64,000 bases of DNA, from the NCBI RefSeq assembly GCF_014202275.1, contig NZ_JACHGF010000001.1, forward strand, positions 124,001 through 188,000. Reading direction: 5' to 3'. The notes under the pieces are model-generated. The model saw only the letters and a list, made by a program, of their open reading frames with translations. It did not search any database and was not told where the DNA came from. Made by a program: the position numbers and the translations under genes. Below, piece after piece: positions 37,898 to 41,912 of the stretch. The stretch comes from Rhabdobacter roseus. GTDB taxonomy: Bacteria > Bacteroidota > Bacteroidia > Cytophagales > Spirosomataceae. Within the stretch, counting starts at the first letter, position 1. Each line of letters starts with the position of its first letter.

Positions 37898-38512
37898 TTA
37901 GCGGTGACGGCTACTAAGTACGTCAATAACCTCATCCAAATCAACATTTTTGTATTCCAATAGCACCAGCAGGTGAAAAAGCAGGTCGGCTACTTCGTCC
38001 TTGAAGAGGTCGTCGTTGGTATCTTTGGCTTCAATCACCACCTCCACAGCTTCTTCACCTACCTTCTGGGCTACCTTATTAATGCCACGACTGAAGAGCT
38101 GGCTCGTGTAGGAAGCGTCGGTGGGGTTGTTCTTCCGCTCGCGGATAATTTGTTTCTGTAGGTAGTTTAAGAACAACGCTTTGCCCTCGTTTTTTTCGTC
38201 GAAGCAGGTGTCGGCCCCGGTGTGGCAGGTAGGTCCGGCGGGCGTAGCCTTGATCAGGATCGTGTCGCCGTCGCAGTCTACGGCCATGGATTGTACGTAC
38301 AGAAAATTATCGGAGGTTTCGCCCTTGGTCCAGAGGCGCTGCTTGCTGCGGCTGAAAAAGGTTACCTTACCCTCCGCCTGGGTTTTTTCGAAGGCTTCCT
38401 GGTTGAGGTACCCCAGCATAAGTACTTTGTGGGTGGTGGCGTCCTGCACCACGGCGGGCACGAGTCCGTCGGGAGCTTTGGAGAAAGCGATGGTAGAAAA
38501 GTCCGTATTCAT
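37898..38512 (-). CDS. hisIE: Bifunctional phosphoribosyl-AMP cyclohydrolase / phosphoribosyl-ATP diphosphatase
   Basis: A 204-residue fusion catalysing the second and third steps of histidine synthesis. The HisI half (1-110) shows LWTKGETSDNFL, DCDGDTILIKATPAGPTCHTG with the zinc-binding Cys residues, and the HisE half (about 115-204) shows KVGEEAVEVVIEAKDTNDDLFKDEVADLLFHLLVLL, the MazG-like helices with the EExxE/ExxD metal ligands. It is the last gene of the hisH-A-F-IE run. Confidence 0.95.
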   Translation of the reverse strand: MNTDFSTIAFSKAPDGLVPAVVQDATTHKVLMLGYLNQEAFEKTQAEGKVTFFSRSKQRLWTKGETSDNFLYVQSMAVDCDGDTILIKATPAGPTCHTGADTCFDEKNEGKALFLNYLQKQIIRERKNNPTDASYTSQLFSRGINKVAQKVGEEAVEVVIEAKDTNDDLFKDEVADLLFHLLVLLEYKNVDLDEVIDVLSSRHR

Positions 38513-38565: not shown

Positions 38566-39345
38566 CTACTTGGTCATGCGCATGGGAATACCCTGGCCGT
38601 GCAGGTACTGCTTGAGGTCGGGGATGTCGATTTCGCGAAAATGAAAAATACTGGCCGCCAGGCCCGCGTCGGCTTTACCGGCCGTGAATACTTCCTGGAA
38701 GTGCTCCATGGTACCCGCCCCGCCCGAAGCAATGATGGGGATGTTGGCGTTGCCAGAAATGGTGGCGGTGAGCTCCAGGGCAAAGCCCGCTTTGGTGCCG
38801 TCGGTATCCATGGACGTGAGCAGGATTTCGCCCGCGCCGCGTTCTTCTACCTCCTTGGCCCAGGGTAGGGTACGTAGCTCGGTGGGTTTGCGCCCGCCGT
38901 GGGTGTGCACGATGTGCTCCCAGGGCATGTCGGGGCCGGCAGGTACGTAGCGGGTGTCGATGGCCACCACGATGCACTGGCTCCCAAACTCCAGCGCCAG
39001 CTCATTGATGAGATCCGGATTGCGCACAGCGGCGGAGTTAATGGATACCTTGTCGGCCCCGGCGTGCAGCATGGCCGACACGTCCGCTACGGACGAAATA
39101 CCGCCGCCCACCGTAAAGGGTATATTAATAGTATGCGCTACCCGCCGCACCAGCTCGGCGAAGGTTTTGCGGTCTTCGACCGTCGCCGTGATGTCCAGAA
39201 ACACGAGCTCATCGGCGCCCTGCTCAGCGTAGAGCGCGCCCAGTTCTACGGCGTCGCCGGCGTCGCGGAGGTTTACAAAATTTACTCCTTTAACCGTTCG
39301 TCCGTCTTTAACGTCCAGGCAGGGGATGATGCGTTTGGTGAGCAT
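38566..39345 (-). CDS. hisF: Imidazole glycerol phosphate synthase cyclase subunit
   Basis: A 259-residue TIM barrel. The start [19 protein letters not shown] holds the catalytic Asp of the first strand (CLDV), and the second Asp is in [13 protein letters not shown]. The two half-barrel phosphate sites are visible as [10 protein letters not shown] and [12 protein letters not shown]. With HisH it turns PRFAR plus ammonia into imidazole glycerol phosphate and AICAR. It starts 17 bases after hisA. Confidence 0.96.
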
Positions 39346-39362: not shown

Positions 39363-40094
39363 TTAAGAACTAAAGGCTTTGAGTTGGGACAGCGTAATGC
39401 GGTTTTCGTAAATCGCTTTTCCGATAATAACCCCAAATAGCTTCATCTGGGCTAGTTTTTCTACGTCGGCCAGGGTACTTACGCCCCCGCTGGCAATGAT
39501 GTGCAGGTCGGGGCATTTGTCCTGTAAGTTTTTATAGAGGTCAAACGAAGGCCCCTGCAGCAGTCCGTCTTTGGCTACGTCGGTACTGATGGCGTAGCGA
39601 ACGCCTTTCTCCAGGTACCTTTCCACGAAGTCATACACCCAGAGCTCGGTACCTTCTTCCCAGCCGCTTACGGCTACTTTCTCATTGCGGGCGTCGGCCC
39701 CCAGGATGATGCGGTCGCCGCCGTACTGGCTCAGCCAGGCCTCAAAGAGCTCGGGCTGCTTCACGGCCACGCTACCGCCCGTAACCTGCTTGGCCCCGCT
39801 TTCAAACACCACGCGCAGGTCGTCGTCAGACTGTACCCCGCCGCCGAAGTCGATGTGCAGACGGGTGCGGGAGGCCAGCGTTTCAAGTACCTTCCAGTTT
39901 ACTACTCGCTTGGCTTTGGCACCGTCGAGGTCCACCAGGTGCAGGCGGGTGAGGCCGGCGTCTTCAAATTGCTTGGCTACCTCGAGCGGGTTTTCGTTGT
40001 AGATTTTCTTCTGGGCGTAGTCGCCCTGCGTCAGGCGCACGCACTTGCCCTCGATGAGGTCAATGGCCGGTATGATATGAAAGGTACTTTTCAT
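39363..40094 (-). CDS. hisA: Phosphoribosylformimino-AICAR ribotide isomerase
   Basis: A 243-residue TIM barrel related to HisF. The catalytic Asp pair is in [14 protein letters not shown] (residue about 11) and [13 protein letters not shown]. The phosphate grips are [12 protein letters not shown] and [12 protein letters not shown]. It opens the ring of ProFAR to give PRFAR, the substrate of HisF-HisH. Located between hisH and hisF in the operon. Confidence 0.96.
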
Positions 40095-40122: not shown

Positions 40123-40710
40123 TTAGAGCGTCAAAAAATTGGACAAAATCCGCTGCCCTACTTCTCCGCTGATTTCGCAGTGAAACTGGGCGGCGTAAAA
40201 GTTGTCCTTGTGCAGCATGGCGCTGAAAGGGTGTACGTACTCGCAGCTGGCTACGGTGAAGGGGCAAACCGGGGCGGCGTAGCTGTGCACGAAGTACACG
40301 TAGGCATCCTCCGGTAGCCCCGCCGTGAGCGGACTGCCGTAGGCGTGGATGCTGTTCCAGCCCATGTGGGGTACTTTGAAGCCCGGCGTAGCCGGAAAAC
40401 GCAGCACGTCAACGTCGAAGATACCCATGCAGGTGGTGTTGTTTTCCTCGGAGTAGCGACACATGAGCTGCATGCCTACGCAGGTACCCAGTACGGGCTG
40501 CGTGAGGGACGGGATGAGCCGGTCGAGGCCTTTGCGGCGGAGGTAGTTCATGGCCGTGCTGGCCTCACCCACACCGGGGAAAATCACCTTATCCGCCGAG
40601 CGAATCTCGGCTTCGTCGTCGGTGTAGAGGTAGCTGGCACCCAGGCGGTCGAGGGCGTACATCACCGACTGCACATTGCCCGCGTTGTATTTGATAATAA
40701 CTGTTTTCAT
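40123..40710 (-). CDS. hisH: Imidazole glycerol phosphate synthase glutaminase subunit
   Basis: A 195-residue class I glutamine amidotransferase. The start MKTVIIKYNAGNVQSV at 40710 matches the family; the frame runs on to 40836 only through the leader. The nucleophile is in PVLGTCVGMQLM, the oxyanion segment in GVGEAS, and the His-Glu pair in QFHCEISGE. It supplies ammonia to HisF. As the first gene of the run it is preceded by a leader with a likely attenuator. Confidence 0.94.
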   Translation of the reverse strand: MKTVIIKYNAGNVQSVMYALDRLGASYLYTDDEAEIRSADKVIFPGVGEASTAMNYLRRKGLDRLIPSLTQPVLGTCVGMQLMCRYSEENNTTCMGIFDVDVLRFPATPGFKVPHMGWNSIHAYGSPLTAGLPEDAYVYFVHSYAAPVCPFTVASCEYVHPFSAMLHKDNFYAAQFHCEISGEVGQRILSNFLTL

Positions 40711-40813: not shown

Positions 40814-40849
40814 AAAAAGGAAGCCCGACTCGTCAAGAATCGGGCTTCC
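40814..40849 (-). terminator. Intrinsic terminator in the his leader (attenuator candidate)
   Basis: On the minus strand GGAAGCCCGA and TCGGGCTTCC form a perfect 10-base stem with an 11-base loop, followed by TTTTT. It lies between the leader peptide and hisH, 104 bases before the hisH start, so it would stop transcription before the operon unless relieved. Confidence 0.8.
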
Positions 40850-40911
40850 GGGTACTATGTATTGAACCTTATTACACCTTTTATTCGCAAAAATACATCG
40901 CCCATCATGCC

Positions 40912-40962
40912 CTAAGCACAATGACTATGGTGAATGGGAAGATATATTCCGGCGTTTAGCAT
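40912..40962 (-). CDS. Probable histidine-rich leader peptide of the his operon
   Basis: A 16-codon frame, MLNAGIYLPIHHSHCA, then TAG. Three of its last six residues are His (HHSH), which is what a his leader needs to sense charged His-tRNA by ribosome stalling. Downstream, in order, are a strong terminator and hisH-hisA-hisF-hisIE. The -7 box ends only 4 bases before the ATG, so the transcript may be leaderless, or translation may be weak; this is the main caveat. A 5-base complementarity (CUUCC in the peptide-coding part with GGAAG of the terminator arm) could form an antiterminator. Confidence 0.5.
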   Translation of the reverse strand: MLNAGIYLPIHHSHCA

Positions 40963-40966
40963 GGCA

Positions 40967-40974
40967 CAAAGGTA
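40967..40974 (-). promoter_or_regulatory. -7 box of the his leader promoter
   Basis: Minus-strand TACCTTTG matches TAnnTTTG. Transcription from here would give a leader RNA of about 150 bases up to the terminator. No exact -33 TTTG is seen; the region is A/T-rich. Confidence 0.5.
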
Positions 40975-41006: not shown

Positions 41007-41912
41007 TTAAAAAAGAGTACCTTGTACGGCCTGCGGCCGGAGCACGGGCGGCTCTACCGCTAGCCCAAGCTGTTCATTGAGGGTATCAACCCAGTACTTG
41101 GTAAGCTCCGGCGAGAGAATGTTCTCGTGCAAATGAATGAAAATATACGCTTCCTGTAGGCCCTGAGCCAGCCATTGCCCCAGGCGGTCTATCCAGGCGT
41201 GGGTGCGGGCGTAGTCGGTGGGGTGCAGCTCGTTGCCCACAAAGCGCAGCGTGAAGGTAGGGCTGGTGAGGGCCATGTGCAGGACGTCGCGCCGCCCGGC
41301 CACGTCGGTCATGACGGTGCCCGCTCCCTGCGCACGAAGTACCTCCAGGGTGCGTTGCCACTGGTACTCGTCCGAGAACCAGGCTGGATGCCGAAACTCC
41401 ACCGCTATAGGGAAGCCATCGGGCAGGCTTTTCAGAAAGTGTTCCAGCGCCGGAAGCTTGGTCGGATCAAAGGCGGGCGAAAGCTGTAGAAAGGTGGTGC
41501 CGAGGTTGTGCTCCAGACTCAGCATGGCCTCCACAAACTGGTTGGTGAGCTGGGTGGCTCCTACGAGCTCTGCCTCGTGGCTGATGGCCTGCGGCCACTT
41601 GGGACAAAACCGGAACTCCCGCGTGACGGCCTCCTGCCACTTCCGCAGCGTCGTGTCGGTGGGGATCTGGTAGTGGGTGACGTTGAGCTCAATGGTATTG
41701 AACTGGCGGGCGTAGTGGTACAAAAACTCCTTTTCCTTGGCGTTGGAAGGGTACAGCTTCCCGAGCCACTCCCGGTTGGACCAGATCGGCGGGCCCACGT
41801 AGATCCGCGGACTGGCGGCGGGGGTACCTGTAAGTACCTTTTGCGTGAAGGGATGGGTAGGTGGAAGCGTGAAGTTTACCTGCGAAATATCGTCAAGTTT
41901 ACCAAAGTCCAT
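41007..41912 (-). CDS. DUF72 domain-containing protein
   Basis: A 301-residue TIM-barrel-like protein. DUF72 segments are clear: IYVGPPIWSNREWLGKLYPSNAKEKEFLYHYARQFNTIELNVTHY near residue 37-80, FCPKWPQAISHE, GTTFLQLSPAFDP, IAVEFRHPAWFS and TLRFVGNELHPTDY. The usual 'FPG/YP' and 'VE-N-SFY' positions are replaced by variants (VTHYQIPT), so it belongs to a divergent branch. Function is unknown for the whole family. The gene precedes the his leader on the same strand but is probably a separate unit. Confidence 0.88.
   Translation of the reverse strand: MDFGKLDDISQVNFTLPPTHPFTQKVLTGTPAASPRIYVGPPIWSNREWLGKLYPSNAKEKEFLYHYARQFNTIELNVTHYQIPTDTTLRKWQEAVTREFRFCPKWPQAISHEAELVGATQLTNQFVEAMLSLEHNLGTTFLQLSPAFDPTKLPALEHFLKSLPDGFPIAVEFRHPAWFSDEYQWQRTLEVLRAQGAGTVMTDVAGRRDVLHMALTSPTFTLRFVGNELHPTDYARTHAWIDRLGQWLAQGLQEAYIFIHLHENILSPELTKYWVDTLNEQLGLAVEPPVLRPQAVQGTLF

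Follow-up and report, generated by a model that had tools for sequence, protein, structure and literature searches.

On the minus strand of the window, the 64,000-nucleotide stretch of Rhabdobacter roseus DNA analysed here, hisH-A-F-IE is preceded by a -7 promoter box, a short histidine-rich open reading frame and an intrinsic terminator. It is very probable that a classical ribosome-mediated attenuator of the his/trp type controls these genes and that RNA polymerase begins on, or directly beside, the A of the ATG opening the leader, which would make the 16-codon frame leaderless. The leader and the RNA stop signal would most likely switch the his genes on under histidine shortage. The mechanism is a known one; the lineage, the operon and the predicted leaderless start set this case apart.

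The minus strand was read letter by letter and every part was found, in the order box, ORF, terminator, hisH-A-F-IE. The -7 box, the 16-residue His frame, the terminator and the his genes all lay where an earlier note on this DNA had placed them in attenuation order. The box TACCTTTG (40967..40974, on the minus strand like all features below) has the Bacteroidota sequence TAnnTTTG, and is separated by the four nucleotides TGCC from the leader ATG at 40962-40960. The leader ORF, MLNAGIYLPIHHSHCA (40912..40962), consists of 16 codons and the stop codon TAG (40914-40912), and its His codons lie in the run CAC CAT AGT CAT (HHSH). The his genes were assigned with NCBIfam equivalog models: hisH (40123..40710, ATG at 40710) by TIGR01855 with 188 bits over a cut-off of 105, hisA (39363..40094) by TIGR00007 with 253.5 bits over 229, hisF (38566..39345) by TIGR00735 with 367 bits over 295, and hisIE (37898..38512) by NF002747 with 271 bits over 187. 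The window HisH was 88% identical to a Telluribacter HisH. Using Rfam covariance models, no family, His_leader included, reached its gathering cut-off in the window, and none matched a leader in 16 related loci, where the single match was one tRNA.

The arrangement was compared with 80 hisH loci from relatives, in which a leader was defined as a His-rich ORF located 3-5 nt past a TAnnTTTG box and at most 420 nt upstream of hisH. Such an ORF was present in 58 of the 80 loci, giving 59 sequences with the window, and the relatives' peptides were 13-26 aa long. Leader-bearing genera included Dyadobacter, Telluribacter, Spirosoma, Fibrisoma, Larkinella, Rudanella, Arsenicibacter, Flectobacillus, Siphonobacter, and Pseudarcicella. 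Among 48 distinct ORFs, the leader frame contained 173 CAY codons and the two alternative frames 30 and 29; peptide sequence and length varied among genera (MLTAETYHLHHSLLAFGRLG, MILQLITYRHHHSER, MNSTITHHHHHLIS), and the His codons were retained. The earlier note had proposed to look for conserved His codons in relatives and had named a terminator kept after loss of these codons as evidence against attenuation; the codons were conserved in frame, and that opposite pattern was not found among the relatives. Its description of the peptide as unusually short did not hold, since 16 aa compares with 18 aa in the E. coli his leader (PMC3896937) and lies within the range of the relatives. By sequence comparison, the His-leader arrangement before hisHAFIE is more than chance.

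About one fifth of the 80 loci (Runella, Arcicella, and others) had no leader. In two further hisH loci the leader lay farther upstream (L040 at -910, L050 at -418), one locus (L041) has the same layout but only one His codon, and three additional genera with in-frame His codons were located through an invariant block described below. In the hisH tree every leader-bearing row fell into one clade with support of 100/100. Several apparent losses were seen within this clade, part of which were explained otherwise, by a contig end (L078) or by the displaced leaders (L040, L050). The L040 leader, MNAAKTVRNHHHSVC, is about 910 nt from hisH, and a transposase-like ORF and inverted repeats were seen by eye between the two.

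The intrinsic terminator (the 3:4 pairing, 40814..40849) has a 13-bp stem, the loop TTGAC and a run of five T, reading GGAAGCCCGATTC-TTGAC-GAGTCGGGCTTCC at 40849-40819 and then TTTTT at 40818-40814. Its assignment draws on the sequence, on shuffles and on covariation in relatives. A terminator was found in 59 of 59 leaders, starting 92-116 nt after the ATG, and none of 177 dinucleotide shuffles matched the native score. When 18 Spirosoma-type sequences were aligned, 97.2% pairing was seen in the stem, three of its pairs had changed on both sides, and slid versions of the same alignment collapsed. The recurrence of leader and terminator in 59 sequences, with the His codons in frame, bears out the earlier proposal of a His leader and attenuator ahead of hisHAFIE. 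As a separate observation, the hairpin ends 6 nt from the hisH ATG in many Spirosoma loci (L012, L022, L023, L028, L033, and others), and the hairpin may therefore also shield hisH translation there.

The spacing between box and ATG was 4 nt in 55 of the 59 loci, 3 nt in three and 5 nt in one. ORFs of 100+ codons in the same loci most often started 23-32 nt past the box, and none of them was found at a spacing of 4. The TAnnTTTG box occupies -12 to -5 in Flavobacterium johnsoniae (PMC6847099) and likewise in F. psychrophilum (PMC9723704), so that the A of an ATG 4 nt past the box is predicted as +1. From the position of the box, the transcription start is thus predicted at 40962, and the his leader peptide is predicted to be leaderless, with +1 at or adjoining the ATG. 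The earlier note had read the 4-base distance either as a leaderless start or as evidence against translation; the conserved spacing and the in-frame His codons favour the former and speak against the latter. The pattern TAnnTTTG-N4-ATG is by itself of little informative value, as the genome of the window held 80 such sites versus 72 for the reversed pattern. When 70 of the genome's sites were read, about 32 opened an ORF of 100+ codons, so that some other genes may share the 4-nt layout, and the his leader was the sole His-rich short frame.

The RNA from leader to terminator could be dissected into regions with alternative partners. Region 1 (40932..40954), identified by a duplex test against shuffles and by full-length folding, covers leader codons and pairs with region 2. 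Region 2, GATGGGCGATGTATTTTTGCG (40886..40906), lies directly past the stop codon and, in the folds and the duplex test, has region 1 or region 3 as its partner. The antiterminator (2:3, 40842..40912), derived from ribosome-position folding, is made up of GGGC/GCCC, TGGG/CCCG, and ATGTATT/AATACAT. Since the two partners of region 2 are mutually exclusive, the regions follow the classical 1:2, 2:3, 3:4 plan. A simple duplex test, in which the post-stop region was paired with the 5' arm of the terminator, gave a mean z of -1.0 over 59 leaders and was unconvincing for Dyadobacter and for the window, and ribosome-position folds and the 1:2 test were therefore tried next; the three are looks at one question. 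The 1:2 duplex of the window had an energy of -24.3 kcal/mol (z -2.9, p 0.02 versus shuffles), and across 12 lineages the combined z was -6.1, with no 1:2 signal versus shuffles in Siphonobacter. Native 1:2 partners scored -18.1 versus -15.5 for partners swapped in from other genera. In full-length folds, 98% of the terminator stem positions were kept and the leader codons paired with the post-stop region.

For the antiterminator, the RNA left free was folded with the ribosome set on the His codons or at the stop codon. With the ribosome on the His codons, on average 67% of the terminator 5' arm paired upstream, with a mean z of -2.2 over 59 leaders that are related sequences and hence not independent. 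Shifting the ribosome to the stop codon strongly weakened the structure, for example from -23.5 to -2.8 kcal/mol in one relative (L004). The fold of the window alone gave a z of -0.1 versus shuffles, with 5 of 13 arm positions paired, so support for the antiterminator comes from the relatives. In the Spirosoma group a post-stop GCAGAAC and a GTTCTGC atop the terminator were paired in 97.5% of cells. As this pairing hardly varied, it testifies to conservation rather than covariation, which was weak there; a terminator loop by itself need not be conserved, unlike this GTTCTGC. Modelled across the relatives, the folds yield an antiterminator that would depend on the position of the ribosome and exclude the terminator.

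In the mechanism that we propose, ample His-tRNA would let the ribosome reach the stop codon and mask the start of region 2, whereupon the terminator at 40849-40814 would form and transcription would end before hisH. When His-tRNA is scarce, the ribosome would stall on CAC CAT AGT CAT and mask region 1, leaving region 2 free to pair with region 3 (AATACAT and the terminator 5' arm), and transcription would enter hisH. If no ribosome is present, 1:2 would form and the terminator would form too. The start site, the translation of the leader, the stalling and the response to histidine are thus predictions from the sequence. To our knowledge, Bacteroidota are a phylum without Shine-Dalgarno sequences. 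The system offers a natural test of how a ribosome could load on a 5'-terminal AUG without such a sequence, fast enough to couple with a polymerase at a distance of about 100 nt.

Between regions 2 and 3 lies a nearly invariant block, GTGTAATAAGGTTcAATACAT (40857..40877), recognised by its conservation and by a search of family genomes. The block, GTGTAATAAGGTTnAATACAT, was almost unchanged in 18 sequences (own, Telluribacter, and Dyadobacter). Of 61 genomes of the family, 8 had it, once each (including loci L233, L235, L236, and L238), and hisH was found at most 420 nt downstream in 7 of the 8 (all but L240). The leaders beyond the Dyadobacter/Telluribacter group were without it. In the folding model the block would sit at the apex of the antiterminator, but its loop AATAAGGTTG is conserved beyond pairing needs and is a concrete lead toward an additional regulatory element. 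Another short reading frame within the block, MYFCE, was discarded for lack of frame conservation. A further-reaching version, that a strictly leaderless his leader is fixed in Spirosomataceae and neighbours and that the Dyadobacter/Telluribacter GTGTAATAAGGTT block is a second sensing or pausing element of a two-input switch, is speculative and on balance rather doubtful.

The near invariance of the block in 18 sequences, its single copy per genome and the loop that pairings leave unaccounted for would also suit an untranslated ORF within a ligand- or protein-sensing switch, in which GTGTAATAAGGTT acts as the sensor and the His codons have no significance. However, CAY codons concentrate in one frame, His codons persist in peptides that differ in length and sequence, and the block is missing from leaders of other groups, which makes this reading very improbable. 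Less credible still, to the point of being hardly conceivable, is that the hairpin merely terminates the upstream gene and that the ORF arose by chance; the end of that gene is indeed close by, but the promoter box and the leader intervene before the terminator, and the co-conservation of all three in 59 loci contradicts it.

Of more weight, though unlikely, is a real attenuator whose leader is not leaderless, transcription starting upstream or reading through from the upstream gene and the 4-nt spacing having another cause. The upstream ORF, whose best family was a hypothetical-protein family matched below cut-off, has its stop at 41007, about 32 nt ahead of the -7 box, so that read-through could also yield hisH transcripts with a non-leaderless ORF. 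Moreover, few transcripts of the Bacteroidota studied are leaderless or have a very short 5' UTR: 5' UTRs under 10 nt make up about 3.7% in Bacteroides thetaiotaomicron (PMC7366714), and 5.5% are leaderless in F. psychrophilum (PMC9723704). Against this stand the 4-nt spacing itself, shared by 55 of 59 hisH loci and by four hisG leaders, and the other genes of the same loci, for which 23-32 nt is the commonest spacing and 4 nt does not occur. The leaderless attenuator is the reading that we retain.

Compared with known systems, the window attenuator shares a His-codon leader, alternative pairings and a terminator before the his genes with that of E. coli and Salmonella (hisL; Rfam His_leader). 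It differs in its predicted leaderless start, in a His cluster (HHSH) shorter than the seven consecutive His of hisL, and in preceding hisHAFIE, whereas the E. coli/Salmonella operon starts at hisG. The predicted leaderless leader peptide resembles Sinorhizobium meliloti trpL/rnTrpL, whose transcript begins at the ATG of a 14-codon leader ORF (PMC7298713); that system concerns tryptophan and Alphaproteobacteria, and the likeness is one of layout, without a claim of homology. His-leader attenuators of Firmicutes (PMC2965389, PMC9413887) share the histidine leader peptide, terminator and antiterminator, in another phylum and likened by description. In F. psychrophilum, leader-peptide attenuators were inferred upstream of amino-acid operons (PMC9723704); the phylum and inferred mechanism are common with the window, the available part of that source does not mention leaderless status, and the principle, on its account, is not new to the phylum. 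No description of his leaders in Bacteroidota was found in the literature searched.

Classical his attenuation had been described in the earlier note as established in Proteobacteria; His leaders are not limited to that group and precede hisG in much of Bacteroidota. Of 70 hisG loci sampled from 26 Bacteroidota families (L241-L310), 39 had a His-rich short ORF upstream, and these came from 11 of the families; in the controls, such ORFs appeared in 7 of 200 shuffles and in none of 40 reverse strands. This suggests that histidine attenuation is a widespread form of control in Bacteroidota, outside present Rfam coverage. The box-to-ATG distance of these phylum-wide hisG leaders varied, and most were not leaderless. 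The hisG of the window genome itself had no His leader and was preceded by a gene with a hisS-like end, as read by eye in translation. Four hisG leaders from the window's family (L155, L159, L173, L228) lay 4 nt past a TAnnTTTG box, with no obvious terminator by eye in L155, L159, and L173. A phylum-wide search for TTTG-N4-ATG-CAYCAYCAY returned mostly chance hits and was set aside; it yielded one lead just upstream of hisG, in another family of the class (L261), where the leader shows the 4-nt spacing, TACTTTTG-CGAC-ATG.
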